Shown here in pieces: positions 21,801 through 45,800 of a DNA stretch of 64,000 nt. The position numbers and the translations under genes are program-made. How positions within the stretch are numbered: position 1 is the stretch's first letter; each line of letters starts with the position of its first letter. Source of the DNA: Acanthopleura granulata. Its lineage: Eukaryota > Mollusca > Polyplacophora > Chitonida > Chitonidae. The notes beneath the pieces are model-generated. The model was not told the DNA's origin and ran no database searches. It worked only from the letters and a program-made list of their open reading frames with translations. The stretch is taken from contig JABBOT010000002.1 of assembly GCA_016165875.1 (NCBI GenBank), forward strand, positions 25,868,265 to 25,932,264, read 5' to 3'.

Positions 21801-24800
21801 GGTGTTTTACACCCTACTCAAGAATATTTCACTTATACGAAGGCGGCCAGCATTATGGTGGGAGGAATTCGGGCAGAGCACGGGGCAAACCCACGACCAT
21901 CCGCAGGTTGCTGGCACACCTTCCCGCGTACGGCCGGAGAGGAAGCCAGCATGAGCTGGTCTTGAACTTACAGAGACCGCATTGGTGGGAGGCTTTGGGT
22001 CATTCTGCTGCGATAGCATGCTAACCAACTGAGCCACGGAGGCCCCCTTTTACTGATGTATAAATAATAAACAACACAACAGGGAGCATATGAAGAAATT
22101 AATATAAAAAACTAATAAGAAATTTGTGAAACCAGTAAACGAAAATTGATTTCCTGCTGACACACTTCACCCGTCAGCTTTGAGTGGGAGATTGGTTTTT
22201 CCCAGAAGCTGTTGTTGTTGAGAGCAGACAAGTAAAAGAAGCGACGGAGGGGTAGAAGATTGTTTAATTTGTGCTTTGTATGATCATTTTTCTATCTAAT
22301 TCATATGCAAAAATTTTAAAATAGATATAGAAATAGTGATTCTCAGAGGCCTTTGGCGCCCCTTTCTAAAATTTCAACTCTTCCACATTCACTGTGGTAA
22401 AACGAGCAACAATGACTAGATAAAGAATCATTATGTCTTAATTTACTGGTATTTTCAGATTATACCACTATATAATAAAGGGGACTCTTTCCAGCCAAAT
22501 TCAATACAGGTAGGTTTTTCCTCTATCTCTTTACTGGGATATAAATCATATTTTTTATTAGCCTTGTAGATTCTAGCCGAATGTGAATTGTCTGATTGTT
22601 CATCTGTTTTTCTCCGTTTTAGCATGGTAACTCTTAATAAACTTGTTGAAAAGGTATCTGCAGAACTACCTCTACTAGGTTGAATCCAGGCATATTTGAT
22701 TTGATGTATAATAATATTAATGTCTTATTATCTGTCAGACAGTTTACAAGGAAGCTCTTCTTTCGCAAGGCCTACACATGAAACACAATATAGGAAGCAT
22801 ATTATATGTAAAATAAATAATATCTACACTAAAGCATCAACGTTGAAGTTTAACTACACTGAAAATACTTTAGGTTTTAATCACCCACCATTTATATCTG
22901 TATGTATGGATTGTGCTTTTCATAAAAATGCCTTTTCTGACTTATTCTATTCTCTCTGTTTCTCTTTAACATGCGCAAAACCATATGACTTTCATGTGCT
23001 TTACAGAAGAAAGACCTGTGTTTTGGTCCCAAACCTGTCCTGTAGCCTTTCCAGTTTCCATACGAAGCATAGACATGCGTATTTGTGTCAGAAGACATCA
23101 CATTTACAAACATTTACTGGTTTCATTTCAGATGAATGCTGGAGAAACATCTGCCCCTCCATTATTGAGTGAAGCAGATCTTATTGCCCTTATGGAAAAA
23201 CATGGAATAGGTAGACTTACAGATCAGTGCCAGATAATCCATTCATTCATGATGCACTCGTCTTTGTAAACTTATTTTCAGAAGCTGAAAGTCATCATTT
23301 CATTGACGAATGACCTGTGTCATTTTCAGATCCTCAATTAATAGGGCTTGTTATCAACCCTACGTGCTTTGTACATATTTTTTACACACTGTAATTGCTG
23401 TTATTTAGTTTGTAAGAATAAAGTGTACTACAGTGTAACTTTATGCCACAGGGATGATTACAGTACATTTGAGACCTGACTTTTATTGGAATATTTAACT
23501 AATGGAAACAGTCATCTTGTAATGATATTCTGGTTTCTGAGGAATTGTTTTTTCTTTTTTTAACAGGAACTGATGCAACTCATGCTGAACATATTGAAAC
23601 CATCAAATCAAGGATGTATGTAGGTGTGAGGCCTGATGGGAAATTTGTGCCTGGTCAGCTGGGAATGGGGTTGGTAGAAGGTGAGTCCATGACTTTAATT
23701 GCAAATTTACCATAAGCATATACATAAACAAATGTTTTAGTTAAAGAGTTTACCTTTCTTAAAGTTAAACAATTTCCTTGTGGTAGATACATGCCAAGAA
23801 ACAAATGCACTTCACTTGTGTGTATCTTTAAAAATTCGGGAATTACCATATCCACTACACATTTATAAGTTGTGAGTATCATCTTCATTGAATGATTAAA
23901 AAATACCAAAACATTGAAATGGAAAATAATCAGATGCATTTAAAAGAATATGTGTTTTTTTTCATGTCCATACAGAGTAAAAAGAATTTTTTTTTCTCAT
24001 TGATATGGAATTTGTTGCAAAGGTTATGATGCCATGGGGTATGAAATGTCCAAGCCACATCTCAGAGCAGAACTTGAGGCTGATCTGAAGAGGTCAGTAT
24101 TAGATCTATTTGTTGTATGTTTTCCTGCAGACATCACGGGATTACAAGTATGTACTTACATCTTTTAATAATCTGATTGATCTGTTTTCCAGAACACTCT
24201 GCAGAGACTGAAATCAAGCAAATGTGATGCAGTTAATATATGTGTATTTTTCAAATCAAACATTTGTTAACCACTCTGCTTAATACCTTTGAATATTTCT
24301 TTATTTGACAGTTTGATTGATTTATGTGAATAATTCCTAAGTTGTGCATGGCTTCCAGTTAGGAACAAGTAAAAATTTTCATCATTAACTTGGTAATCAT
24401 TTATAAATGATTAAATAATATCAGAGCATCTTGAGGCCATCAGCTCTCCATCTGAACATAGTAAGTCATGTTGATCATGATCAGATTATAATTTTTCCTT
24501 TCCACACACACTGAGAGTGATTGCTTGGATTGCTTCATTCTCTTGATGTTCACAAAAGACGTATCGTGGTGTTCATGTCAGTACAAAATGAAAATGCCCA
24601 AGGTTGTTTAGCTCCTTGCAAATTAGCAGAAGCACATATTCTGACGTTCAGGGCTGTGCGGCCCTGCACTCTGTGGTCATGTAATCTTATTTTCATCAAG
24701 CAGTTTCTGTAGTTTGGTAATTACACAAACGTCATGTAGTGTGAAGGAATATTTCTTGTTGTCATTGTGTAATCTTTTTGGTGGTAACCATTACATCTAC

Positions 24801-27800
24801 ATGTGTTTTTCTTGTCAACCCTGAAAAAAAAACTGTGGTAACCTCTAATGAGTTTTCAGCCAGGTCAGGAGAGGAAAAAAACATTTGGTCAGGCCTGTTT
24901 CCTGTGGCTGTTCAACTGCGAGAATGAGAAAGTCTGTGAAGGGGACTGTGGTTGTTAAACTGCAAGAATGAAGAAATCTGTTTGAAATCTGACCTTTCCT
25001 TGGCAGCGTAACTGTGTGTTAGGGTAATTGATGAAAGTAGTGCTCAGTTGCAGTGGGGGTTCCTGTTTGATGGATCTCCTGTTAATTGTTTGACTATTGC
25101 TCTACCCAAGCTGACATTTCTCTGTGGGAGAATTAGTTATTGTATCAATATGTTAATCTGTTTGGCTCCCTGGTGTGTAAAGAGCAAGAGAAGTTTGATG
25201 GTTATGGATAGTAACTGTGAATTGATTGGTTGATAATGAAGAAGAGCTGAGATGTTTTGTGCTAGAGATGATCTTTGATGTTAAGACAGAGGGGTGATTT
25301 GAGAACATGGGATAACAGGAAATGTAGAATCTTTGTGTTGATTTTATGGTAATAGCCATAAGACAAAGCCACCAGTGGCTTTTGAGGTACAGAGTAGTGT
25401 TTGTGTGGGTTTTGATGCAGAGGTTTTCAAGTCTTACATAAAAAACAAATTATGCACTTCACTCCATGGCAGCACTTTCATGGAATTGCTATATTCACTT
25501 TTGAATGGTTAAAGAAGTAAATAGATGCAGCAGCTGTCTTGTGTTATGCCATGTATGCGAATATTGCTAATTTGTAAATATGTTACATGTTTAAAAAAAA
25601 AAACATTTTAAGCAGTACTGTGGTGATGTCGAGAGAAAATATCCACTCAGGAAGAGAGTGCATAGTGAATAGCCCACCCACCATTACCTCTGCTTTCAGA
25701 AATATTGCTTGGTTTCTTTGAACAAGTATGGGAAGGAAGAAAGATTAAGAAGTTTTTCCTTTGTACATACGTTATTTATTAGCAATTGTATAATTTCCAA
25801 CTATGAAACAGACATAACAATCAACAAATCCGCTAAAGGTATAAATAACAAATGCACTTTATATGCAAAAGAGCTTTTCAAAGGGCACTAAATTGAAATG
25901 TGGAGAAATCAACTCATTGAAGAGTTATGTGTGTGAGGTCCAAAGCACAATTGCTTGGTTGTTGTGAAGTGAGAAAGGCGGCCAGTTCAAGGGAATATCG
26001 CAAACGACAGAGGAGATCATAATTTTCCTTTCCAGATACAGTGAGAGTGAAGACCTGATTGTCTGGCTTGGATTGCTTCCTTCTCTTGTTGTGCACGAGA
26101 GAGGTGTCGTGGTGTATGGGACGTTTGGCCGAGGTTGTTTTGGTGATTGTAGAATTACAAGTTAGAGTGTTTTCATCCACCCTTTTGTCTCGGCCTGGAC
26201 AGGCACAAATTCTGACATCCACGGCTGTGCGACCCAGCACTGTGTGTTCATTCTCCAGGGTGAAGACAAGTTGCATGGGTCGTCTGTTTGGACCTCCTAC
26301 GCAGGAACCGAGACACATGAACTGGTAGAGGTTAACTACCCAGTCTGATCCCATCTGTGCTGTTTGATGGGGAATGACTACGCTGTGCCTGTTTGTGAAG
26401 GGGTCCTCAATGTAGGCAGCCAAAGGATGGTCACAGCGAATGAGATGACTGGGTGCAGGGTGGCTCTCGTTGTGCTGCAGACAGCTTGCGTGGTTAGGAC
26501 ATCTTCTGACAACATGTTGAATGTGCTGTGGCTCCTTGTATATGGCCATTGCTCTGATGATGGTGCCAGGAGGTGGAGGGATGGTGGTTTTGAACTGGAT
26601 AGGACAAGAGGTGGCCATGCGAACGTAGAGCTTGTTGAAAGTGCTGGAGTATGTCCAGGTGGTAGATTTGGTGACCTTTTTCGGTGGAGAAAACGCCATG
26701 TGGAATCCGTAGTGCCCAGGGTAATGGGTGGAGGAAGGAACAGAATGAGGATTGGCCTGGCTGAAAGGTGTGCTTGGTGAGGCCAGAGGACTGGACTGCT
26801 GAGACAGATTGTTGTCAACCAAGCACTCAAGGCTGGAGTTTCCGTTACTGCTTTCATCATCACTTTGGTAGTGATCAACAAGGTCCTCCAGACTTGCCCA
26901 CAGGCTGTTAAATGATTGCCTTGCACTTTGTAATGAGCTGTCAGCCAGGTCATTAGAGGACAGAAGCATTTGGTCAGACATGGTTGCTGTGGCTGTTGAT
27001 GTGTGAGAATGAAGAAATGTGTGATGGTGCAGGTCTTTTATTGGCTGGAGATTAACTGTGTCTTATGGTAAATGATGAAAGTAGTGCTCAGTTTTAGTGG
27101 GGGGGTCCTGTTTGATGTATCTCCTTTTGATTGTTTGACTATTGCTCCACCCAAGCTGACATTTCTCATTGGGAGAATTAGTTATTGTATCAATATGTTA
27201 ATCTGTTTGGCTCCCTGGTGTGTAAAGAGCAAGAGAAGTTTGATGGTTATGGATAGTAACTGTGAATTGATTGGTTGATAATGCAGAAGAGCTGAGATGT
27301 TTTGTGCTAGAGATGATCTTTGGTGTTAGGACAGAGAGGTGATTTGAGAACATGGGATAACAGGAAATGCAAAATCTGTGCCTTGATTTTATGGAATTCA
27401 GTTAAAATGAATGTGTTCTTTTAGGAAAAATAAACAAGGAAATAAATGTTCTGAGTTTGTGCCTAAGAAGGGTAAGAAAACCATGTACCAAATGGATTGT
27501 TTCATTGTATTGGTTTGATTGAAGAAGCCATAAGACAAAGCAGCCAGTGTCTTTTTGTGATACAGAGTAGTGTTTGTGTGGATTTTGATGAAGGAGATTT
27601 TCAAGTCATACATAAAATTTAATCATGCTTTCATTAAGTAGTTTCTCTAATTGAGTTTGATAATGACAAAAAGGACATCAAATGTGAAAGGAGTATTACT
27701 TATTTGCATTATGCAGTATTTAAGGAGGGAATAGTAGATTTATATGCGTTTTTCTTATCAATCATCAATAAAAAAATGATGGTGACATCAAGTGTAAGAA

Positions 27801-30800
27801 GTGTGTTGGCACAAATTATGCATTTCCCTCCTTGGCAGCACTCTCATGGAATTGCCATATTCACTTTCCAGTGGTTAAAGAAATAAATAAATACAGGAGC
27901 GGTGTTGTGATGGGCCATGTATGCAAATGTTGCTAAATTGTAAATATGTTACATGTTTGAAAAAGTTTATTAAGCAGTACCATGGTGATGTTGAGAGAAA
28001 TTATCCATTCTGGAAGACAGTGCAGAAAGACTAGCCCATCCATATGAACAGCTGAGATGTTATGTTGTAGAGACGATCTTTGATGTTTTGAGAGAGAGGT
28101 GTTTTCAGAGCATCGGAGAACAGGAAATATAAAGTCATTGTGTTGATTTTGTGGACTTGAGTTGAAGTGAATGTGCTTCTCTAGAAAAATAAACAAAGAA
28201 CGAAGCGTTCTGAGCTTGTGCTTAAGAAGGATAAGAGCACCATGCAGCAAATGGATTGTTTCTTTGTAATGGTTTGAGTGAAGAAAATGGGCATAACACA
28301 AAGCAGCCAGTATATTTTTTTGGGATACAGAGTAGTGTTTGTGTTGGTTTTGATCAAAGAGATTTTCAAGTCTTGCATAAAATTTAATCAGACTTTCATC
28401 AAGCAGTGTCTGTAATTGAGTTTGGTAATTACAAAAGAGACATCAGTTGTGAAAGGAGTATTGGTAATTTGCAATTTGCTTGTGCCTAATAATTGTAAGA
28501 GCACCATGCAGCAAATGGATTGTTTCTTTTTAATGGTTTGAGAGATGAAAAAAGCCACAAGACAAAGCATCCAGTGGATTTTGATCTACAGAGTGGTTTT
28601 TCTGTAGGTTTTCATGAATAGATTTTCAAGCGTTATATGAAATTTAATCAGGCTTTCATCAAGCAGGTTTTCTGATTGAGTTTCGTAATTCACAAAAGAC
28701 CTCAGTTGAGAAAGGAGTATTACTTATTTGCATTGTGGAATGTTTTAAGACGTACCAGTAGATTTATATGTGTTTTTCTTGGCAATCCTGAATGAAAAAA
28801 ATTATGTTGACATCAGCTGTAAGAAGTGTGTTGGCACAAATTATGCACTTCACTCCATGGCAGCGCTTTGATGGAATTGCCGTATTCACTTTTGAATGGT
28901 TAAAGAAGTAAATAGATACAGCAGCTGTCTTGTGTTATGCCATGTATACGAATATTGTTAATTTATAAATATGTTACATGTTTGACAAAAAGCTTTTAAG
29001 CAGTACCGTGGTGAGGTTGAGAGAAAATATCCACTCTGGAAGAGAGTGCATAGTGAATAGCTCACCCATCATTACCTGTGCTGTCAGAAACATTGTTTGG
29101 TTTCTGTGAACAAGTATAGAAAGGAAGAAAGATTAAGAAGTTTTTCCTTTGTACATACGTTATTTATTAGCAATTGTATAAATTCCAACTATGAAACAGA
29201 CATAACAATCAACAAATTCGCTAAAGGTATAAATAACAAATGCACCTTATATGCAAAAGAGCTTTTCAAAGGGCACTCAATTGAAATGTGGAGAAATCAA
29301 CTCATTGAAGAGTTATGTGCGTGAGGTCCAAAGCACAATTGCTTGGTTGTTGTGAAGTGAGAAAGGCGGCCAGTTCAAGGGAATCTCGCAAACGACAGAG
29401 AAGATCATAATTTTCCTTTCCAGATACAGTGAGAGTGAAGACCTGATTGTCTGGCTTGGATTGCTTCCTTCTCTTGTTGTGCACGAGAGAGGTGTCGTGG
29501 TGTATGGGGCGTTTGGCCGAGGTTGTTTTGGTGATTGTAGAATTACAAGTTAGAGTGTTTTCATCCACCCTTTTGTCTCGGCCTGGACAGGCACAAATTC
29601 TGACATCCACGGCTGTGCGACCCAGCACTGTGTGTTCATTCTCCAGGGTGAAGACAAGTTGCATGGGTCGTCTGTTTGGACCTCCTACGCAGGAACCGAG
29701 ACACATGAACTGGTAGAGGTTAACTACCCAGTCTGATCCCATCTGTGCTGTTTGATGGGGAATGACTACGCTGTGCCTGTTTGTGAAGGGGTCCTCAATG
29801 TAGGCAGCCAAAGGATGGTCACAGCGAATGAGATGACTGGGTGCAGGGTGGCTCTCGTTGTGCTGCAGACAGCTTGCGTGGTTAGGACATCTTCTGACAA
29901 CATGTTGAATGTGCTGTGGCTCCTTGTATATGGCCATTGCTCTGATGATGGTGCCAGGAGGTGGAGGGGTGGTGGTTTTGAACTGGATAGGACAAGAGGT
30001 GGCCATGCGAACGTAGAGCTTGTTGAAAGTGCTGGAGTATGTCCAGGTGGTAGATTTGGTGACCTTTTTCGGTGGAGAAAACGCCATGTGGAATCCGTAG
30101 TGGCCAGGGTAATGGGTGGAGGAAGGAACAGAATGAGGATTGGCCTGGCTGAAAGGTGTGCTTGGTGAGGCCAGAGGACTGAACTGCTGAGACAGATTGT
30201 TGTCAACCAAGCACTCAAGGCTGGAGTTTCCGTTACTGCTTTCATCATCACTTTGGTAGTGATCAACAAGGTCCTCCAGACTTGCCCACAGGCTGTTAAA
30301 TGATTGCCTTGCACTTTGTAATGAGCTGTCAGCCAGGTCATTAGAGGACAGAAGCATTTGGTCAGACATGGTTGCTGTGGCTGTTGATGTGTGAGAATGA
30401 AGAAATGTGTGATGGTGGAGGTCTTTTATTGGCTGGAGATTAACTGTGTCTTATGGTAAATGATGAAAGTAGTGCTCAGTTTTAGTGGGGGGTTCCTGTT
30501 TGATGTATCTCCTTTTGATTGTTTGACTATTGCTCCACCCAAGCTGACATTTCTCAGTGGGAGAATTAGTTATTGTATCAATATGTTAATCTGTTTGGCT
30601 CCCTGGTGTGTAAAGAGCAAGATAAGTTTGATGGTTATGGATAGTAACTGTGAATTGATTGGTTGATAATGAAGAAGAGCTGAGATGTTTTGTGCTAGAG
30701 ATGATCTTTGATGTTAAGACAGAGAGGTGATTTGAGAACATGGGATAACAGAAAATGTGTTGTTTTAGGAAAAATAAACAAGGAAATAAACGTCGTGAGT

Positions 30801-33800
30801 TTGTGCTTAAGAAGGGTAAGAAAACCATGTACCAAATGGATTGTTTCTTGGTAATGGTTTGAGTGAAGAAAAAAAGCCATAAGAGAAAGCAGCCAATGTC
30901 TTTTTGTGATACAGAGTAGTGTTTGTGTGGATTTTGATCCAAGAGATTTTCAAGGCGTACATAAAATTTAATCATGCTTTCATTAAGTAGTTTCTCTAAT
31001 TGAGTTTGATAATGAGAAAAAAGACATCAAATGTGAAAGGAGTATTACTTATTTGCATTGTACAACATTTAAGGAGGTACCCATAGATTTATATGCATTT
31101 TTCTTGTCAATTCTCACTTAAAAATGATGGTGACATCAAGTGTAAGAAGTGTGTTGGCACAAATTATGCACTTCCCTCCTTGGCAGCACTCTCATGGAAA
31201 TGCCATATTCACTTTTCAATGGTTAAAGAAATAAATAAATACAGGAGCGGTGTTGTGATGGACCAATAAATTGTAAATATGTTACATGTTTGAAAAAGTT
31301 TATTAAGCAGTACCATGGTGATGTTGAGAGAAATTATCCATTCTGGAAGACAGTGCAGAAAGACTAGCCCATCCATATGAACAGCTGAGATGTTATGTTG
31401 TAGAGACGATCTTTGATGTTTTGAGAGAGAGGTGTTTTCAGAGCATCGGAGAACAGGAAATATAAAGTCATTGTGTTGATTTTGTGGACTTGAGTTGAAG
31501 TGAATGTGTTTCTCTAGAAAAATAAACAAAGAACGAAGCGTTCTGAGCTTGCGCTTAAGAAGGATAAGAGCACCATGCAGCAAATGGATTGTTTCTTTGT
31601 AATGGTTTGAGTGAAGAAAATAGGCGTAACACAAAGCAGCCAGTGTCTTTTTGGGATACAGAGTAGTGTTTGTGTTGGTTTTGATCAAAGAGATTTTCAA
31701 GCCTTGCTTAAAATTTAATCAGACTTTCATCAAGCAGTGTCTGTAATTGAGTTTGGTAATTACAAAAGAGACATCAATTGTGAAAGGAGTATTGGTAATT
31801 TGCTTGTGCCTAATAATTGTAAGAGCACCATGCAGCAAATGGATTGTTTGTTTTCTTTTGGTTTGAGAGAAGAAAAAAGCCACAAGACAAAGCAGCCAGT
31901 GGATTTTGAGCTACAGAGTGGTTTTTCTGTAGGTTTTCATGAATAGATTTTCAAGCGGTATATAAAATTTAATCAGGCTTTCATCAAGCAGTTTCTCTAC
32001 TTGAGTTTTGTAATTCACAAAAGACATCAGTTGAGAAAGGAGTATTACTTATTTGCATTGTGGAATGTTTTAGGACAAACCAATAGATTTATGTGTGTTG
32101 TCAATCTTGTCAATCCTGAATGAAAGAATTTATGTTGACATCAGCTATAAGAAGTGTGTTGGCACAAATTATGCACTTCACTCCATGGCAGCACTTTGAT
32201 GGAATTGCCAAATTCACTTTTGAATGGTTAAAGAAGTAAATGAATACAGCAGCTGTGGTGTGTTATGCCATGTATGTGAATGTTGCTAATTTGTAAATAT
32301 GTTACATGTGTGAAAAAAAGTTTTTAAGCAGCACCGTGGTGATGTTGAGAGAAAATATCCACTCTGGAAGTGAGTGCATAGTGAATAGCCCACCCATCAT
32401 TACCTGTGCTGTCAGAAACATTGCTTGGTTTCTTTGAACAAGTATAGAAAGGAAGAAAGATTAAGAAGTTTTTCCTTTGTACATACGTTATTTATTAGCA
32501 ATTGTATAATTTCCAACTATGAAACAGACATAACAATCAACGAATCCGCTAAAGGTATAAATAACAAATGCACCTTGTATGCAAAAGAGCTTTTCAAAGG
32601 GCACTAAATTGAAATGTGGAGAAATCAACTCATTGAAGAGTTATGTGCGTGAGGTCCAAAGCACAATTGCTTGGTTGTTGTGAAGTGAGAAAGGCGGCCA
32701 GTTCAAGGGAATCTCGCAAACGACAGAGAAGATCATAATTTTCCTTTCCAGATACAGTGAGAGTGAAGACCTGATTGTCTGGCTTGGATTGCTTCCTTCT
32801 CTTGTTGTGCACGAGAGAGGTGTCGTGGTGTATGGGACGTTTGGCCGAGGTTGTTTTGGTGATTGTAGAATTACAAGTTAGAGTGTTTTCATCCACCCTT
32901 TTGTCTCGGCCTGGACAGGCACAAATTCTGACATCCACGGCTGTGCGACCCAGCACTGTGTGTTCATTCTCCAGGGTGAAGACAAGTTGCATGGGTCGTC
33001 TGTTTGGACCTCCTACGCAGGAACCGAGACACATGAACTGGTAGAGGTTAACTACCCAGTCTGATCCCATCTGTGCTGTTTGATGGGGAATGACTACGCT
33101 GTGCCTGTTTGTGAAGGGGTCCTCAATGTAGGCAGCCAAAGGATGGTCACAGCGAATGAGATGACTGGGTGCAGGGTGGCTCTCGTTGTGCTGCAGACAG
33201 CTTGCGTGGTTAGGACATCTTCTGACAACATGTTGAATGTGCTGTGGCTCCTTGTATATGGCCATTGCTCTGATGATGGTGCCAGGAGGTGGAGAGGTGG
33301 TGGTTTTGAACTGGATAGGACAAGAGGTGGCCATGCGAACGTAGAGCTTGTTGAAAGTGCTGGAGTATGTCCAGGTGGTAGATTTGGTGACCTTTTTCGG
33401 TGGAGAAAACGCCATGTGGAATCCGTAGTGGCCAGGGTAATGGGTGGAGGAAGGAACAGAATGAGGATTGGCCTGGCTGAAAGGTGTGCTTGGTGAGGCC
33501 AGAGGACTGGACTGCTGAGACAGATTGTTGTCAACCAAGCACTCAAGGCTGGAGTTTCCGTTACTGCTTTCATCATCACTTTGGTAGTGATCAACAAGGT
33601 CCTCCAGACTTGCCCACAGGCTGTTAAATGATTGCCTTGCACTTTGTAATGAGCTGTCAGCCAGGTCATTAGAGGACAGAAGCATTTGGTCAGACATGGT
33701 TGCTGTGGCTGTTGATGTGTGAGAATGAAGAAATTTGTGGTGGTGGAGGTCTTTTATTGGCTGGAGATTAACTGTGTCTTATGGTAAATGATGAAAGTAG

Positions 33801-36800
33801 TGCTCAGTTTTAGTGGGGAGTTCCTGTTTGATGTATCTCCTTTTGATTGTTTGACTATTGCTCCACCCAAGCTGACATTTCTCAGTGGAAGAATTAGTTA
33901 TTGTATCAATATATTAATCTGTTTGGCTCCCTGGTGTGTAAAGAGCAAGAGAAGTTTGATGGTTATGGATAGTAACTGTGAATTGATTGGTTGATAATGA
34001 AGAAGAGCTGAGATGTTTTGTGCTAGAGATGATCTTTGATGTTAAGACAGAGAGGTGATTTGAGAACATGGGATAACAGAAAATGTGTTGTTTTAGGAAA
34101 AATAAACAAGGAAATAAACGTCCTGAGTTTGTGCTTAAGAAGGATAAGAAAACCATGTACCAAGTAGATTGTTTCTTGGTAATGGTTTGAGTGAAGAAAA
34201 AAAGCCATAAGAGAAAGCAGCCAATGTCTTTTTGTGATACAGAATAGTGTTTGTGTGGATTTTGATCCAAGAGATTTTCAAGGCGTACATAAAATTTAAT
34301 CATGCTTTCATTAAGTAGTTTCTCTAATTGAGTTTGATAATGACAAAAAAGACATCAGATGTGAAAGGAGTATTACTTATTTGCATTGTACAACATTTAA
34401 GGAGGTACCCATAGATTTATATGCATTTTTCTTGTCAATCCTCAGTAAAAAAATGATGGTGACATCAAGTGTAAGAAGTGTGTTGGCACAAATTATGCAC
34501 TTCCCTCCTTGGCAGCACTCTCATGGAAATGCCACATTCGCTTTTCAATGGATAAAGAAATAAATAAATACAGGAGCGGTGTTGTGATGAACCAATAAAT
34601 TGTAAATATGTTACATGTTTGAAAAAGTTTATTAAGCAGTACCATGGTGATGTTGAGAGAAATTATCCATTCTGGAAGACAGTGCAGAAAGACTAGCCCA
34701 TCCATATGAACAGCTGAGATGTTATGTTGTAGAGACGATCTTTGATGTTTTGAGAGAGAGGTGTTTTCAGAGCATCGGAGAACAGGAAATATAAAGTCAT
34801 TGTGTTGATTTTGTGGACTTGAGTTGAAGTGAATGTGTTTCTCTAGAAAAATAAACAAAGAACGAAGCGTTCTGAGCTTGTGCTTAAGAAGGATAAGAGC
34901 ACCATGCAGCAAATGGATTGTTTCTTTGTAATGGTTTGAGTGAAGAAAATAGGCGTAACACAAAGCAGCCAGTGTCTTTTTGGGATACAGAGTAATGTTT
35001 TTGTGGATTTTGTGGATTTTGATCAAAGAAATTTTCAAGCCTTGCTTAAAATTTAATCAGACTTTCATCAAGCAGTGTCTGTAATTGAGTTTGGTAATTA
35101 CAAAAGAGACATCAATTGTGAAAGGAGTATTGGTAATTTGCAATTTGCTTGTGCCTAATAATTGTAAGAGCACCATGCAGCAAATGGATTGTTTGTTTTC
35201 TTTTTGTTTGAGAGAAGAAAAAAGCCACAAGACAAAGCAGCCAGTGGATTTTGAGCTACAGAGTGGTTTTTCTGTAGGTTTTCATGAATAGATTTTCAAG
35301 CGGTATATAAAATTTAATCAGGCTTTCATCAAGCAGTTTCTCTACTTGAGTTTTGTAATTCACAAAAGACATCAGTTGAGAAAGGAGTATTACTTATTTG
35401 CATTGTGGAATGTTTTAGGACGAACCAATAGATTTATGTGTGTTGTCAATCTTGTCAATCCTGAATGAAAGAATTTATGTTGACATCAGCTATAAGAAGT
35501 GTGTTGGCACAAATTATGCACTTCACTCCATGGCAGCACTTTGATGGAATTGCCAAATTCACTTTTGAATGGTTAAAGAAGTAAATGAATACAGCAGCTG
35601 TGGTGTGTTATGCCATGTGTGTGAATGTTGCTACTTTGTAAATATGTTACATGTGTGAAAAAAAGTTTTTAAGCAGCACCGTGGTGATGTTGAGAGAAAG
35701 TATCCACTCTGAAAGTGAGTGCATAGTGAATAGCCCACCCATCATTACCTGTGCTGTCAGAAACATTGCTTGGTTTCTTTGAACAAGTATAGAAAGGAAG
35801 AAAGATTAAGAAGTTTTTCCTTTGTACATACGTTGTTTTATTAGCAATTGTATAATTTCCAACTATGAAACAGACATAACAATCAACGAATCCGCTAAAG
35901 GTATAAATAACAAATGCACCTTGTATGCAAAAGAGCTTTTCAAAGGGCACTAAATTGAAATGTGGAGAAATCAACTCATTGAAGAGTTATGTGCGTGAGG
36001 TCCAAAGCACAATTGCTTGGTTGTTGTGAAGTGAGAAAGGCGGCCAGTTCAAGGGAATCTCGCAAACGACAGAGAAGATCATAATTTTCCTTTCCAGATA
36101 CAGTGAGAGTGAAGACCTGATTGTCTGGCTTGGATTGCTTCCTTCTCTTGTTGTGCACGAGAGAGGTGTCGTGGTGTATGGGACGTTTGGCCGAGGTTGT
36201 TTTGGTGATTGTAGAATTACAAGTTAGAGTGTTTTCATCCACCCTTTTGTCTCGGCCTGGACAGGCACAAATTCTGACATCCACGGCTGTGCGACCCAGC
36301 ACTGTGTGTTCATTCTCCAGGGTGAAGACAAGTTGCATGGGTCGTCTGTTTGGACCTCCTACGCAGGAACCGAGACACATGAACTGGTAGAGGTTAACTA
36401 CCCAGTCTGATCCCATCTGTGGTGTTTGATGGGGAATGACTACGCTGTGCCTGTTTGTGAAGGGGTCCTCAATGTAGGCAGCCAAAGGATGGTCACAGCG
36501 AATGAGATGACTGGGTGCAGGGTGGCTCTCGTTGTGCTGCAGACAGCTTGCGTGGTTAGGACATCTTCTGACAACATGTTGAATGTGCTGTGGCTCCTTG
36601 TAGATGGCCATTGCTCTGATGATGGTGCCAGGAGGTGGAGAGGTGGTGGTTTTGAACTGGATAGGACAAGAGGTGGCCATGCGAACGTAGAGCTTGTTGA
36701 AAGTGCTGGAGTATGTCCAGGTGGTAGATTTGGTGACCTTTTTCGGTGGAGAAAACGCCATGTGGAATCCGTAGTGCCCAGGGTAATGGGTGGAGGAAGG

Positions 36801-39800
36801 AACAGAATGAGGATTGGCCTGGCTGAAAGGTGTGCTTGGTGAGGCCAGAGGACTGGACTGCTGAGACAGATTGTTGTCAACCAAGCACTCAAGGCTGGAG
36901 TTTCCGTTACTGCTTTCATCATCACTTTGGTAGTGATCGACAAGGTCCTCCAGACTTGCCCACAGACTGTTAAATGATTGCCTTGCACTTTGTAATGAGC
37001 TGTCAGCCAGGTCATTAGAGGACAGAAGCATTTGGTCAGACATGGTTGCTGTGGCTGTTGATGTGTGAGAATGAAGAAATGTGTGATGGTGGAGGTCTTT
37101 TATTGGCTGGAGATTAACTGTGTCTTATAGTAAATGATGAAAGTAGTGCTCAGTTTTAGTAGGGGGTTCCTGTTTGATGTATCTCTTTTTGATTGTTTGA
37201 CTATTGCTCCACCCAAGCTGACATTTCTCAGTGGGAGAATTAGTTATTGTATCAATATGTTAATCTGTTTGGCTCCCTGGTGTGTAAAGAGCAAGAGAAG
37301 TTTGATGGTTATGGATAGTAACTGTGAATTGATTGGTTGATAATGAAGAAGAGCTGAGATGTTTTGTGCTAGAGATGATCTTTGATGTTAAGACAGAGAG
37401 GTGATTTGAGAACATGGGATAACAGAAAATGTGTTGTTTTAGGAAAAATAAACAAGGAAATAAACGTCCTGAGTTTGTGCTTAAGAAGGATAAGAAAACC
37501 ATGTACCAAATGGATTGTTTCTTGGTAATGGTTTGATTGAAGAAAAAAAGCCATAAGAGAAAGCAGCCAATGTCTTTTTGTGATACAGAGTAGTGTTTGT
37601 GTGGATTTTGATCCAAGAGATTTTCAAGGCGTACATAAAATTTAATCATGCTTTCATTAAGTAGTTTCTCTAATTGAGTTTGATAATGAGAAAAAAGACA
37701 TCAAATGTGAAAGGAGTATTACTTATTTGCATTGTACAACATTTAAGGAGGTACCCATAGATTTATATGCGTTTTTCTTGTCAATCCTCAGTAAAAAAAT
37801 GATGGTGACATCAAGTGTAAGAAGTGTGTTGGCACAAATTATGCACTTCCCTCCTTGGCAGCACTCTCATGGAAATGCCATATTCGCTTTTCAGTGGTTA
37901 AAGAAATAAATAAATACAGGAGCGGTGTTGTGATGGACCAATAAATTGTAAATATGTTACATGTTTGAAAAAGTTTATTAAGCAGTACCATGGTGATGTT
38001 GAGAGAAATTATCCATTCTGGAAGACAGTGCAGAAAGACTAGCCCATCCATATGAACAGCTGAGATGTTATGTTGTAGAGACGATCTTTGATGTTTTGAG
38101 AGAGAGGTGTTTTCAGAGCATCGGAGAACAGGAAATATAAAGTCATTGTGTTGATTTTGTGGACTTGAGTTGAAGTGAATGTGTTTCTCTAGAAAAATAA
38201 ACAAAGAACGAAGCGTTCTGAGCTTGTGCTTAAGAAGGATAAGAGCACCATGCAGCAAATGGATTGTTTCTTTGTAATGGTTTGAGTGAAGAAAATAGGC
38301 GTAACACAAAGCAGCCAGTGTCTTTTTGGGATACAGAGTAGTGTTTGTGTGGGTTTTGATCAAAGAGATTTTCAAGCCTTGCTTAAAATTTAATCAGACT
38401 TTCATCAAGCAGTGTCTGTAATTGAGTTTGGTAATTACAAAAGAGACATCAATTGTGAAAGGAGTATTGGTAATTTGCAATTTGCTTGTGCCTAATAATT
38501 GTAAGAGCACCATGCAGCAAATGGATTGTTTGTTTTCTTTTGGTTTGAGAGAAGAAAAAAGCCACAAGACAAAGCAGCCAGTGGATTTTGAGCTACAGAG
38601 TGGTTTTTCTGTAGGTTTTCATGAATAGATTTTCAAGCGGTATATAAAATTTAATCAGGCTTTCATCAAGCAGTTTCTCTACTTGAGTTTTGTAATTCAC
38701 AAAAGACATCAGTTGAGAAAGGAGTATTACTTATTTGCATTGTGGAATGTTTTAGGACGAACGAATAGATTTATGTGTGTTGTCAATCTTGTCAATCCTG
38801 AATGAAAGAATTTATGTCGACATCAGCTATAAGAAGTGTGTTGGCACAAATTATGCACTTCACTCCATGGCAGCACTCTCATGGAATTGCCATATTCACT
38901 TTTGAATGGTTAAAGAAATAAATAAATACAGGAGTGGTGTTGTGATGGGCCATGTATGCAAATGTTGCTAAATTGTAAATATGTTACATGTTTGAAAAAG
39001 TTTATTAAGCAGTACCATGGTGATGTTGAGAGAAAGTATCCATTCTGGAAGACAGTTCAGAAAGACTAGCCCATCCATATGAACAGCTGAGATGTTATGT
39101 TGTAGAGACGATCTTTGATGTTTTGAGAGAGAGGTGTTTTCAGAGCATTGGAGAACAGGAAATATAAAGTCATAGTGTTGATTTTGTGGACTTGAGTTGA
39201 AGTGAATGTGTTTCTCTAGAAAAATAAACAAAGAACGAAGAGGTGATTTCAGAACATGGGATAACAGGAAACGTAAAGTCATTGTTTTGATTTAATGGAA
39301 TTCAGGTATAATGAATGTGTTGTTTTAGGAAAAAGAAACAAGGAAATAAATGTTTTGAGTTTGTGCTTAAGAAGGGTAAGAAAACCATGTACCAAATGGA
39401 TTGTTTCTTGGTAATGGTTTGAGTGAAGAAAAAAAGCCATAAGACAAAGTAGCCGGTGTCTTTTTGTGATACAGAGTAGTGTTTGTGTGGATTTTGATCA
39501 AAGAGATTTTCAAGTCTTGCATAAAATTTAATCAGACTTTCATCAAGCAGTTTCTGTAATTGAATTTGGTAATTACAAAAGAGACATCAATTGTGAAAGT
39601 CGTAATAGTAATTTGGAATTTGCTTGTGCGTAAAAATTGTAAGAGCACCATGCACCAAGTAGGTTGTTTCTTTTTAATGGTTTGAGAGAAAAAAAAAATC
39701 TCAAGACAAAGCATCCAGTGGATTTTGAGCTACAGAGTAGTGTTTGTGTAGGTTTTGAGCAAGAGATTTTCAAGTTTTACATAAAATTTTGTCAAGCTTT

Positions 39801-42800
39801 TATCGAGAAGTTTCTTCAGTTGAGTTTGATAATGACAAAGAAGACATGAAAGGTGAAAGGAGTATTACTGATTTACATATGTATATTCTGACATGCATGG
39901 CTGTGCTCTTGTACTTGTCTTCTAGGTGCCTTAGTACCCCCACCTAACTTACTGTGACAGTCGACTACACTTTTTGCACCCCTGTCCCCACTTTTTTGAA
40001 ACTTCCTATGATTATGTTTAAGGTAGGCATTATCAAGGAATTTCTCTGTTCGAGCTTGATAATAATCCAGGTTACATTAAACGTGCCAAAAGAATCATTC
40101 TTGTTGTTTGATGTGCTGGAGGCGAGTTTTTATCTTCACTGGTCGAAGACCGAAGGTTTTTATGTATTAGGAAGTTGGCCGTCATTCGTGCTCCGTCTGC
40201 CTGTCCATCTGTCCAGCATCTCTTAACTTTTCATTCAAAACGCTACTCCTCCTACTATTTTTGCCTGATTTTTTTGAAACTTGATATAGACTACATCAAG
40301 ATACATAATCTGTTATACTGATTTTTAATTTTCATGATGCATTGTGCGTCTGTCTGTCTCTCAGTTTATCCTTATAAGTAAGAGATCTTTCAGAATGCTC
40401 TTCCAGAATGACAGTCTTTGATTGAATTCAGCGAAAATTCCTTAAAGTGTAGACTACATCAAGATGTATATTAAATTAGTAGTATTAACTTTTTATTTTG
40501 ATCATCAGTTCATCTGATGTCAGATCGTCCAACATATGTTAGCATTTCTATCAAAATGCCACTACTTTTACTGTTTTTATCCAATTTCAAATACACTTTA
40601 GTAGAATTGAATCTAGATACATATTTTGTAATATTGATTTTTAATTTTGATTTTCTATTTTTTGTTATACGTATATAATTTTGTAATAGACCTCATCACA
40701 ATTTTATCCCAAACAGTAGAGATACTGCCTCATCAGAGACTCTGGTTTTGTATGCATTTGTTTGTGTGAAGCTCTCATTCTAGGCTTAAAGGTAAAGACC
40801 ACAGAGAAATCTAAAAACCATTTAAAAAATTCAGTGAAAGTATTTGCAGATATAGTTTTTAATGGTCTTTTCACACACCATAATTTCATTTTTGAGCGGT
40901 TTTTCATTTTAAAGCTATTTTATGTTTATAGTATTATGTGGCAAAATAAATGTGATTGTCCTCTTATTACTCAGTGTTAAGAGATGTGACAGAACACAGT
41001 AGGTATAACTTTCTTAGATAATTATTCTTTCTCCATTGTAGAATATGTGATGGTCATAAGGATAAAAATGGTGAGTGTAAATCACCATAGGAAGAAATCT
41101 GGATATAATTGGTTTGTTGACATTTACACGCTATTGAGTGATTGTAACTTGCATCCATGTATACATATACTTTACATTGTGGGAGTTACTATCCTGAAAG
41201 TAAACTGAACTAAGGATATACTTTTTATCAAGAAATAAACTGACCTGGTTCCAAGTCATTTTTAAATTGTGCGAGATACATGTAAGAAAATGTGACCCAT
41301 TGACAAAGTGGTGGAATTATGCCAAGTATTTCAAATTTTAGATCTACAAAATGAATAAAAACTGGCTGTGCAATTTCAAATGACCAGTGATCCATAGGTC
41401 TTTTTTTGCAGTTGTGCTGGCAGAACAAGTACGTAAATACAAAGAAGTTTTCATTGAAGCCTCAAGAAATGTAAGTATCTAAAACAGTTCCATAACTTGT
41501 TTTGTACTGTGGTTTGTTTCTTTCACTCTTTGTCACACCAACTTTTAAAGCTCAAGGGGGTTCCATCTTCAAGCCATGTAGGAAAGCCCCAGTGACAGTT
41601 CACCACCCTCGCCAGCCGAGGGGTTTTCCCTTTTAAAGATATTGTTCGGATAAAACAATATATTGGTACAATCGACGCGAAGGTCTTACACAACGGATGT
41701 GAAAGCGGCCGCCGCATGAAGCAACTTCTTAATGCTGGCTATGACATCATGAAGGTCAAATACAACGATGCAGGATTATGAAAAGACCGGCCTCTGGCAA
41801 GCCTACTCTTTACAACAACAACACCAACACCTACAAAGATTCGCATATATATGTAGCAATGAGTGACGCCTCACCACCCTTGCTGTCCTATTAGAGATAT
41901 CCAATGTCTAGTGTATAACAACAGTGATTGAACCGCAACATGGAGGATCTCAAAAACAGGCACCAAAATCCCGTGTCCTTGCGGGGGGGGGGGGGGGAGG
42001 GGTGAAATAGAAGTCTGTTGGGCCAGTGGGCAAGAAAATAATCCGTTCGAGTACATACAGTGACTCCATAAATCTTCCCCGCTCCCCCATCCCCTCCCAC
42101 CCCTCACCCCACCCCACCCTGACTGCAAATGATGTGGAGATCCTTTGGGAAAATGCTTACAATGGACTGCAGGAAAAGCTGCTGTCAGAAGTACTGTAAA
42201 GTCCACCTAGTCAAAATCCGCAAGTGTGTTCAGGTAATGCAGGACGTAGCCGCCGATATCGGGCAAAGATTAAAGGCCAGCAGGTATTACGTACATGTAT
42301 TATACGCAGTACATATCCCAGAGCTCACATACTTCCGGGCTCGCTATATATAACTCAGGCTGAGAGTAAGCGCTTATATATTAGTCTTCTCGCCTGTATA
42401 TATGTGTACCAGGGCTGTGTAAAGGACTGGCCATATATTAGCTCCTCTTATGTATACATCAGTTCTGACGGTTGATAAAATAAAGTCTACAACTAGCTGG
42501 TGGAAATATAGAAGCATGTGGAGGCTATATTACCAATTTTCCGTTGAACCGAACTCTCAGTGTATGCGCCACGTCTACAGCTTGCCATTGTGTCATGGGT
42601 GATTGGCATATTTTTATCTACGGAATTCAGCGAAAGTAGTCGTTCTCTACAAAACCTAACATGATATTCTTCATCAGCGTGTCTTTGTAAGATAGGTGCC
42701 TTTTTCGATCAATATATGTATATATGCAGAAAACACCCCCATTTTGTCTGTATATATCACCCTGGCCGCCTCAGTGCAGTGAGGTAGACCGATGGCTTCA

Positions 42801-45800
42801 GTGGGTTTTCAGGGGTTTATCTCTCCATGTTATTCCCAATATTTCGTCTCACCACACTTGTGGGAATCTCTGCAACTTTCGACGTTTCGCTGGCAGAGAG
42901 ACCCCCGGTGCTATTGAAACATTTTTGGTGTCTACCTGACACCACGTGTAATGCCCCCATTGGGGTGAGTCAATAGCATAAACCCGTATTACAACCCCAT
43001 GGGGAAATTACTGCGTAAAAGGGCTAACATATCCGGATTTTGCTAAAACACATTCTTTGGAGGAGACCTAATATAGGGTTTTTCGATCCCTGGATATTTT
43101 TTCCCCGCTGTGATCAGCGGTTTTTTAGCCCAGCAGCCAGGCTGATGGTTTGACTCCTGGTGTGGGATATTTTTTTCTTTTCTCTTTTTTCATCAGTGAT
43201 ATTTTCTTGGCTAGCTTAGATAAAGATGGGGTGTGGAAAAAGGCCTCTGGAGTCCCAGTGCACATAAAACGAAAAAGAAAATTAAAACCCTATTTATGTC
43301 CAACGAGACGTGACAAAGGTTTAGCTTTTTTAACTTCAACAAATCAGTATCATAGGAGACTTCAACAAAGCCGGCGGTTGGAGTTTGGCGACCCGGCCTT
43401 GATTACCTCATCTGTTTTACCATTGAGGCCTGGTGACCCAGATTCAGTTAGGTCATCTAATTGATCAATTAGGTCTGATAACCCAGACTGAAATAGATCA
43501 TTGAATCTGGTCATTTCATCTGTCTGGTGTTGTATAGAGTTGTAAAGTTAAAAAAAGTTAATATATGCACCTAAACCGCACTTGACCCCAAATGCGGTCA
43601 TAGTGAGTATATTGGAAAAGCGTGATGCACACATCTTATAGTCAACTTGCGAATAATACTATAAGTAAATGGAATGCTGGTATCCCACCTCTCTGTCGAA
43701 ACCTTCAGTTGGAAAATTTTTTCATGAAAGCCGCTTGAGCTTCGTCCTGTCCGTTTTGCACTAACTCTTCTTTAGTTTTCTTATGTAATGAAATCGAGTT
43801 ATGCGCTGTACCCACTCGGGTCTGTTGTTTCATTTCTTGGTATTTCGCGACTTTCACCGAGTATTAACTGAAACTCGGTATCCGAAATCTTACCGTCAGT
43901 CAGCGCTGTGGAGACGTGGTCTGTGATGGTATTAAGCTTACTCTTAACCAGTAAGCGAATTTCATTGTGTTTTTTAATTTTGACAGACAGGCACTGGCTT
44001 ACAAACTTACTCAACCCGCTGAAAAGGCCACAGACTAAGATCGCCCCTCCCATGCCTATAGCTGTAGGAGCAGGAATTATTGTGGACAACACTCCGGCTT
44101 CTCGGACGTCCACGCGCATACTTACTATGGGTAGCACGGTATCGATACCATCAACTACGTTGACTGTACGATGGTATTTTTTGTATAAATCAGCTCTGAC
44201 ATCTCTCTCGCCTTCTAACTCCTTTTTCAGAGTACCAATATGTTGTAATCTATACTCGTACAGATCTTCAGTCGGGAGGGTAGCAAATGCTGGATACAGT
44301 TGCGCCATCTTCATGTAGATGTCGTTATGATGTTTAATTCTAAATCTGATACGGGTTTAAAACTTATTCTTAACCGTTTCAACTGAATGCCATGCTCTAG
44401 ATTTATTCAATTCACCTACACTGTTTGTGGCGCCTCAGAACATTGTCTAACATCGTCTCATTTCTATTAGCTCTTGGAAGTATTTTTACGACGATAGTTA
44501 CGCTTCAATCCACAAAGGATGTGGAAGGGCTTGTCTCGATTATGACCCAACATGATATCCAGAACATAATATACCTGTACCCGGGGGTACCTCGCCAATA
44601 GGAAATTGTGAGTTGATATCTAGGTAAGATGTTGTCTTTGAACTTCCTCTGATCATACGGCCCCCTTCCGGCGTTATCCCTACATGAACTTCATCTCCTT
44701 GGGGTGTGTACGAGAGGAAAGCAGTACCACCATTAAAAACCTTTCGAACAACACCATCATTTGCTGTTTGCACCAGAACCATGGTCACAGCCAGATCAGT
44801 GTCCCATTTGGGATCATCCGATTTAACGAGAGCCCGTATCCTATTCTCAGGATTATCAGATAGAACCAGACTGATTTTTTTTGGCGTGCTTTCTGGGCTT
44901 TGATATCCACATCACGCCAGCCAGTGTGTAAAATTACGCCTAAGTATGTCGTATCTATAGACTGGCCACAATTGTTTAACAACTTTACAGTAAGCCCCGT
45001 CACAAAAACAGCCAACAGTCTTTTGTTCTGTGCATTGGCAAATGCCGCTGTCCTTCCCGAGTTAATGTCTTCGTGGTATACCAGATCTGCCTGCTGAAGA
45101 GTAGAGCCACTTGCATTACTGGTAGACACTGCAGCGATGTTTTCGGATGCGCTCACCTTTTCTAGGTGGACAAATATTTCTTTGTGAGATATTAGTTTGG
45201 GTGGTTTCTCTCCTTCATTTATTCCACCCATGGGTTCTCTTACGCTTAAGAATCCCAGGATATTACGTAGATCTAGCAGACTGATAAAATCATTCTGATT
45301 GGTGAGTTCCAACCGCACACGACCAGTAACTTCATTCAATTTCAGCGTAGCACCCAAAGGTTGGCACACTTCTTTGTTAAGGGTACAGACAGTGTAATAG
45401 CCGCTTGGCACGACTATCGATTTATCGTTAAACATGAAAAGTGTGTCGGTACCAATGTTCGCCAAGGGTAGGGCACAAGGTCATTTTGAGTAGGGCAACC
45501 TCGTACTGACCTTGATTGTCCATACATGATGGGAGGAGGAGGACACTGCTCGCCTGTTGAACAGCACTCAGTGTGACAAATGTGTTCAGAAATGTGTTTG
45601 ATTAGGCGTTTTTATTCAATAGGAAGGTAACCAGTTACCATGTCGATGAGGTATATTCAAGTAAAGTGATCGACTGGCCGAGTGAAATCATGGTGATAGA
45701 TCCCAATCTGAACTACTTGCAGATTGCGTTTGATGTAGCTTTTCAAAAGGTGCTTGAACACTACACCTTACCAAAGATCAACTGCGACGCATTGATTGAG

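Follow-up and report, generated by a model that had tools for sequence, protein, structure and literature searches.

The window, a stretch of 64,000 nucleotides from the chiton Acanthopleura granulata, contains four intronless ATG-to-stop frames of exactly 355 codons, all on the minus strand. The preliminary description had claimed four intact p53-family genes in tandem, and this was confirmed by the four open frames and by protein domains scoring above the Pfam cut-offs. Taken as a whole, the array is likely to represent an old retrocopy that was amplified into working, dosage-raising p53 genes, as judged from sequence.

Organisation of the array and its host gene

The frames c1 (25914-26981), c2 (29302-30369), c3 (32630-33697) and c4 (35976-37043) differ pairwise at 3 to 9 of 1068 bases. 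Twelve sites vary among them, seven silently and five with a change of amino acid. Private residues are I134 and Y329 in c1, the latter in the tetramer motif, F63 in c2 and P208 in c4. The frames are part of a direct repeat with a period of 3.33 to 3.39 kb, the matching stretch of which extends from 25445 to 39078. Alignment of the repeat gave the minus-strand units u1 (25445-28835, the c1 frame with its flanks, the phase being arbitrary), u2 (28836-32163), u3 (32164-35508) and u4 (35509-38845); u1 is the most diverged. For unit comparisons u4 was taken to 39078, and the 233 extra bases of a partial unit were aligned to gaps and left uncounted. Partial copies of the spacer repeat (38846-39883, no strand assigned) close the array on the right. 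A decayed fifth copy is present on the minus strand at about 24480-25349; its upstream region (24946-25349) matches the same region of u1 at 88.7%, and its frame survives only as fragments at about 24480-24942.

The start context is identical in every copy. A CCAAT/TATA-like stretch, AGCCAATAAAAGACC (27032-27046, minus strand), ends 50 nt upstream of the c1 start codon, is the same in all four copies and was read as a putative core promoter. Downstream of c1 an AATAAA polyadenylation signal occurs at 25775-25780 on the minus strand, and the offset from the stop codon is the same in all four copies. Scanning of five flanks for p53 response elements (two half-sites, spacer of 0-3, at most 2 mismatches) gave no sites, while shuffled flanks gave a mean of 0.04 to 0.11. 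Self-regulation via such elements was therefore left without support.

The host intron (24094-41039, 16.9 kb) belongs to TOP3A, as had been proposed. It is bounded on the plus strand by the exons 24019-24093, which matches Liolophura TOP3A (P0121) at 96%, and 41040-41069, which encodes 10 residues and has an E value of 0.28 alone but is in order. The following exon, 41411-41473, gave an E value of 4e-6. The stitched exon model scored above the cut-offs of three topoisomerase-related Pfam families and short of that of the C4 zinc finger, and its best match was Liolophura DNA topoisomerase 3-alpha.

Parent gene and other p53 paralogs

A multi-exon parent gene, for which a search of the genome had been suggested, was found at C83:48213587-48237953 on the minus strand and is of the p63/p73 type. 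Its region homologous to the array consists of 11 separate coding blocks. The array is considered to be of retro-origin because the introns between these blocks are missing from all four frames.

Intron-poor p53 paralogs beyond the array were found on two other scaffolds. C12a and C12b each contain one phase-0 intron which, by eye, is within a few residues of the place of a parental intron, as a semi-processed retrocopy would show. The two C7 copies are decaying, one with two TGA codons and the other without zinc ligand H179 and with a rearranged N-terminus, and contrast in this respect with the open array in the same genome. The p53-family members elsewhere in the genome lie outside the window to which the preliminary description was confined.

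In the tree the array genes formed their own clade, with the C7 lineage as sister. All chiton retrocopies were grouped as one clade in the best tree but with weak support (63/96), and a single origin for all of them was set aside. The retrocopies and the parent as one clade were also weakly supported (61/89), and a clade of C12a with C12b was not rejected (p-AU 0.33).

Features of the encoded proteins

The P53 DNA-binding domain (209.3 to 212.3 bits; Pfam cut-off 27) and the P53_tetramer domain (34.5 to 39.8 bits, lowest in c1; cut-off 20.7) were detected in all four proteins; a SAM domain is absent. The F-x-x-L-W-x-x-L activation motif is present as F24-x3-W28-x2-L31, with W28 in all four copies, and by its sequence is predicted to be of the MDM2-binding type. 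In c3 all four zinc ligands are kept (C161, H164, C223 and C227). Its DNA-contact residues K105, S226, R233, R257, A260, C261, R264 and R267 presumably correspond to human K120, S241, R248, R273, A276, C277, R280 and R283. The activation motif, zinc ligands, main DNA-contact arginines and tetramerisation segment reported at the outset were thus borne out, the equivalent of human R282 being Lys in c3. None of the five residues that vary among c1 to c4 is a zinc ligand, one of these DNA contacts or part of the activation motif. At residue 329 c1 has Tyr for Asp. This position of the tetramer helix is conserved in 90% or more of the 24 p53-family proteins aligned, and the substitution may weaken tetramerisation. 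The S-Q-E-T-F context of the parent, whose SQ we take to be an ATM/ATR-type site, is not preserved in the array proteins.

Instead of being independent activators, the SAM-less proteins could tune the parent, either in mixed tetramers with it or by occupying MDM2. We consider this rather unlikely. It would agree with the retained tetramer domain and MDM2-type motif, with Y329 in the tetramer motif of c1, and with a SWIB exon at C3:27553946 (29 bits, cut-off 25), which has a TAA within the matched region and which we take to be MDM2-like. Guardian and decoy models have also been proposed for elephants (PMC5061548). A pure decoy, however, would need neither the zinc ligands nor the main DNA contacts, all of which are retained.

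Orthologs, age and selection

The array copies and the proteins P0001 to P0004 formed one clade (8 rows, 100/97). P0002 is the Liolophura ortholog of the array, and P0001, P0003 and P0004 come from three further sources, probably chitons, which makes the case for a retrogene lineage stronger than had been claimed. In Liolophura, P0002 and TOP3A are on the same scaffold of 96,433,062 bases, which is 16% of the assembly and hence provides weak synteny. The 5 member sequences grouped under P0002 may represent copies, isoforms or sequences from other sources, and an array in Liolophura is not claimed. As the database source 'lgn' appears to include spliced transcripts from other genes, for example P0011, with 606 aa on a contig of 2044 bases, P0001, P0003 and P0004 may be transcripts; for an intronless gene, a transcript is indistinguishable from genomic DNA. 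In P0001 the MDM2-contact Phe is replaced by Leu. Neither a poly(A) tract nor a target-site duplication was seen by eye in the surroundings of c1 and c2; such scars of retroposition would be expected to have vanished if the insertion dates back as far as the ortholog clade.

Constraint followed the domain pattern in all four ortholog comparisons. Between c3 and P0001, 209 of 230 residues were identical in the DNA-binding and tetramer domains and 74 of 122 in the rest of the protein (P = 4e-11). The corresponding values were 206/230 and 73/113 for P0002 (P = 1e-7), 185/230 and 47/125 for P0003 (P = 1e-15), and 155/227 and 41/90 for P0004 (P = 3e-4). A check of selection across the copies, which had also been suggested, revealed an excess of silent changes, with 7 among the 12 in-frame variable sites against 27% expected (P = 0.022, from only 12 sites). 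The domain-patterned constraint and the silent excess suggest that the array copies are probably working genes. In a neutral clade of the depth of the array and its orthologs about 18 stop mutations would be expected, with the reservation that only open frames enter a protein database in the first place. Between A. granulata and Liolophura the DNA-binding domain of the array lineage is identical at 172 of 192 residues, compared with 186 of 190 for the parent; the faster evolution of the array lineage is compatible with relaxed and with changed function alike.

That the copies are young processed pseudogenes, open through recent duplication and none of them used, appears quite unlikely. The copies differ by less than 1%, a set of 12 changes would introduce no stop with a probability of 0.68, and the C7 copies and the fifth array copy are decaying. 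Amplification by drift has a precedent in the elephant TP53 retrogenes (PMC9108310). On the other hand, the lineage is old and is open in Liolophura and the three further sources, and both the focus of constraint on the functional domains and the silent excess inside the array speak against pseudogenes.

Amplification and probable homogenisation

When 1801 bases of spacer were compared with the genome, skipping very common words and scoring only the best candidates, 10 matches were obtained, all of them in the array. This confinement indicates that amplification was local and occurred at the DNA level. At silent sites (estimated to number about 288) c1 diverges from the other copies by 1.0 to 1.7%, and in the flanks the divergence is 4.5 to 7.1% (P = 0.0004 to 0.011). 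As the silent divergence of c1 is below that of the flanks, the frames appear to be partly homogenised; in two of the six unit pairs (u2-u4 and u3-u4) frame and flank divergence were alike.

It is very unlikely that the copy number is an artefact of assembly, produced by false tandem duplication or collapsed repeats. The assembly was built with MaSuRCA and optical mapping (PMC7850002), 5,849 gaps and 10% N are listed for it (PMC11068029), and the units are similar and measure 3.3 kb. Nevertheless, there is no N in the window, and variants private to a single unit occur outside the frame in all four (85, 19, 17 and 10 in ungapped columns for u1 to u4). Haplotypes mistaken for neighbours would not yield four graded units and a decayed fifth.

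Carriage and copying of the p53 gene by a virus or transposon is extremely improbable and was set aside. Frames that look foreign do occur between about 43.8 and 53.2 kb of the window, among them one with an integrase core, which scores 22 bits and so stays under the Pfam cut-off (32.6). This stretch, however, is located in another TOP3A intron, past the exons 41040-41069 and 41411-41473. The spacer had no match elsewhere in the genome among the best candidates scored, six peptide patterns of the array protein had no match in the viral contig collection, and in Liolophura too the gene is on the same scaffold as TOP3A.

Proposed origin of the array

According to the favoured explanation, an old retrocopy amplified into working genes, a spliced mRNA of a chiton p63/p73-type gene would have been reverse-transcribed. 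The retrocopy would have been inserted antisense in the TOP3A intron; this most likely predates the divergence of Acanthopleura and Liolophura, and the same intron is presumably occupied in Liolophura. It may have persisted as a compact p53 gene with activation motif, DNA-binding domain and tetramer domain and without a SAM domain. In the A. granulata lineage, tandem DNA duplication would have produced at least four copies that are open and one that has decayed; partial homogenisation of the frames would be due most simply to gene conversion. Each copy, if transcribed and functional as protein, most likely provides a tetrameric p53-type transcription factor. An MDM2-like ligase may control the array proteins, and the array would raise the dosage of p53-type protein.

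Comparison with known systems

No published description of the chiton p53 array was found among the matches listed from the open-licence PMC literature on p53 in chitons and molluscs, on retrogenes and on p53 copies, and to that extent the presumed absence of an earlier report held. None of the papers listed on p53 copies deals with molluscs to judge by its title, and in one paper matching Polyplacophora and p53 the mentions of p53 are confined to references. The word p53 is absent from the main text of the chiton genome papers PMC12005716, PMC7850002 and PMC11068029, and A. granulata is named in none of the best literature matches on lifespan, cancer and DNA damage.

The elephant is the best-known case for a better damage response via added p53 copies, although its retrogenes are truncated and contested. 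The TP53RTG genes number about 19 to 20, are intronless and originated from spliced mRNA followed by segmental duplication (PMC5061548). Truncation had already shortened the ancestral elephant retrogene from 390 residues to 157, and 14 of 19 copies now have at most 88, which is compatible with drift (PMC9108310). The p53-R9 protein is without a tetramer domain (PMC9935553), and W23G, by which the MDM2-contact tryptophan is lost, occurs in all elephant retrogenes (PMC5061548). The parallel with elephants drawn in the preliminary description holds for the route, since in the chiton too a retrocopy was followed by DNA-level amplification and multiple copies exist beside an intact parent. It does not hold for the product. 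Truncation before the tetramer domain and W23G are absent from all four chiton copies, which are full length, keep the key residues and W28, form a single tandem array and have orthologs in other species. Compared with the truncated elephant retrogenes, the chiton array is thus the cleaner natural test of extra p53 dosage. The dosage question is directly testable here, since four conserved full-length copies exist alongside a multi-exon parent and decaying copies that can serve as internal controls.

Lineage-specific extra p53-family genes have been described in mosquitoes, Nasonia, Tribolium, Branchiostoma and Ciona (PMC5543598); the main text of that paper speaks only of duplications and contains neither 'retro' nor 'intron'. 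The molluscan p53/p63/p73 gene, with TAD, DNA-binding, oligomerisation and SAM domains, belongs to the same family as the array genes, and the chiton parent is of that type; the SAM of the parent type was seen as Pfam domains in the Liolophura parent ortholog P0005. The array genes differ from it in having no introns and no SAM domain and in forming their own clade. Vertebrate TP53 is a multi-exon gene and resembles the array genes in its compact set of activation motif, DNA-binding domain and tetramer domain without SAM. It originated by genome duplication and loss of SAM (PMC5543598). Because the chiton form would have arisen by retroposition, the two architectures would be convergent, and retroposition would be a second route to a SAM-less p53 gene. 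Only tentatively can it be proposed that chitons evolved by retroposition a SAM-less p53 class of their own, distinct from the p63/p73-type parent and convergent with vertebrate p53 in architecture, and that in A. granulata, which would then be a natural example of an animal with several additional intact p53 genes, at least four full-length copies are retained by selection for dosage in an array subject to gene conversion.

Organization of the array and its host gene

Each of the four intronless 355-codon frames in the window (c1 to c4, at 25914-26981, 29302-30369, 32630-33697 and 35976-37043) contained a p53 DNA-binding domain and a tetramerisation motif according to Pfam. The frames lie on the minus strand as direct repeats with a period of 3.33-3.39 kb and differ pairwise at 3-9 of 1068 bases. 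At the left end of the array a decayed fifth copy was found, the upstream region of which is kept (88.7% to u1, the repeat unit carrying c1, over 24946-25349); of its frame only fragments remain. Partial spacer repeats start at 38846, at the right-hand end. The copy number of four is the number as assembled, in an assembly with gaps; a false duplication is argued against by private variants in every unit.

Residue 329 of c1 (25914-26981), in the tetramer motif, is Tyr. Of 24 aligned p53-family proteins, 90% or more have Asp at this position, and the other copies lack the Tyr. Judged by sequence, the c1 product would be an obvious candidate for a tetramer subunit that is weaker or acts dominantly.

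Mapping of the Liolophura TOP3A protein (P0121) placed TOP3A on the plus strand at 6691-62489, with its exons 24019-24093 and 41040-41069 bracketing the array. The 16.9-kb intron is mostly taken up by the array, which is antisense to TOP3A. In the stitched TOP3A model the matches to the Toprim, topoisomerase and GRF families exceeded the Pfam cut-offs, and the match to the C4 zinc finger fell short of its threshold. The next large intron holds a mobile-element-like stretch (43799-53199) with several frames lacking a Pfam match; an integrase-core frame at 50079-51086 reached 22.3 bits for rve, below the cut-off of 32.6. Tentatively, this stretch resembles a Polinton/adintovirus-type element.

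Probable retro-origin and the p53 family in the genome

A multi-exon parent, for which the preliminary description had proposed a genome search, was located in the A. granulata assembly (606,523,666 bases, 87 contigs). A Pfam P53 search of the entire genome gave 11 matches, four in the array, three on scaffold C83, two on C12 and two on C7, and those on C83 are the DNA-binding exons of the p63/p73-type parent. A search with the full Liolophura ortholog (P0005) extended the parent over about 24 kb, from the activation part through a SAM-bearing end. The array protein as query gave 14 genome matches, all at p53 loci already found and none at a new place; these match counts are lower bounds, and the array relic lay below the detection level of the searches. 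The parent region homologous to the array protein comprises 11 coding blocks, and the array copies have none of the introns between them. Visual inspection of the surroundings of c1 and c2 revealed no insertion scar.

Two apparently intact two-exon genes lie on C12, C12a at 9976722-9978249 (in locus L006) and C12b at 10835732-10837456 (in L005; Liolophura ortholog P0006). By eye, their single phase-0 intron falls within a few residues of one parental intron. This is the look expected of a copy from partly spliced RNA, and both genes are tentatively, and with a query, regarded as semi-processed retrocopies. The C7 copies (L016 4437-5821 and L017 2179-3382), about 6.4 kb apart in opposite orientations, are both decaying: one has two TGA codons, and in the other the N-terminus is rearranged and a zinc ligand is missing. 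Additional N-terminal fragments lie nearby (L016 9058-9762). Liolophura P0043 and P0051 are orthologs of the C7 copies; where checked (P0051), the zinc ligand and N-terminal motif are kept. The A. granulata family thus apparently consists of one parent, six other apparently intact genes (four in the array, two on C12), two damaged copies and the relic. Extra p63-like proteins on separate contigs in the gastropods Littorina saxatilis (P0058, P0116) and Nucella lapillus (P0049, P0068) are possibly further molluscan retrocopies.

Relatives, constraint and probable concerted evolution

A 52-row tree placed the array copies in one clade (100/97) with the Liolophura array ortholog P0002 and with P0001, P0003 and P0004; the C7 lineage was the sister of this clade (98/87). 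Among the best 120 of 467 matches, P0001 to P0004 were 80, 83, 68 and 60% identical to the query array copy. From their position in the tree we infer that P0001, P0003 and P0004 are chiton proteins. P0002 starts with an N-terminal extension, SSFSRLTTTTT ahead of MSDN, that by eye resembles the translation of the array sequence directly 5' of the ATG. This likeness suggests an absence of splicing at this place in the Liolophura gene as well. The scaffold that carries P0002, filed under Liolophura sinensis, also carries P0121; as it makes up 16% of the assembly, the shared location is modest evidence.

Copy c3 and P0002 shared 172 of 192 residues of the DNA-binding domain, 34 of 38 of the tetramer part, 35 of 46 of the linker and 15 of 28 of the hinge. 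The DNA-binding and tetramer domains were kept better than all the remaining protein in all four comparisons (P 3e-4 to 1e-15). A first version of this test, with P0002 and P0003 only and without the activation motif and linker, agrees with the fuller one. Within the array 7 of the 12 variable sites were silent, versus 27% expected (P = 0.022, omega about 0.28; a small test). The parent is far more conserved than the array protein, with 186 of 190 DNA-binding-domain residues identical.

Silent positions of c1 differed from the other copies by 1.0-1.7% and the flanks by 4.5-7.1% (P 0.0004-0.011). For the remaining pairs P was 0.017 (u2-u3), 0.83 (u2-u4) and 1.0 (u3-u4), all values being per pair and uncorrected for six pairs. 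The frame was more alike than its surroundings in four of the six unit pairs. Gene conversion over the frame would be the simplest reading of this contrast; selection on silent sites is a possible alternative.

Putative function and comparison with known systems

By human p53 numbering, the array keeps every zinc ligand and every main DNA contact. The MDM2-type motif is exactly spaced, and the SQETF context beside the motif of the parent is not retained. A SWIB exon at C3:27553946, which we take to be MDM2-like, scored 29 bits (cut-off 25); a TAA lies within the matched stretch. The residues, the motif and the SWIB exon, together with the loss of SQETF, speak for a p53-type activator whose triggering has changed. 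The array copies are thus probably working p53-type factors. That the array raises the dosage of such an activator is a more tentative proposal, and the likeliest rival is that the array protein modifies the parent via mixed tetramers.

Searches of the open-licence literature turned up no paper on chiton p53. Duplicates of p53 are known in invertebrates (PMC5543598), and the accessible part of that source describes no intact tandem retrogene array among them. The parallel with the elephant TP53 retrogenes drawn in the preliminary description holds for the route and fails for the product: as far as the accessible parts of the sources extend, elephants and the chiton share the same route, but the products differ.
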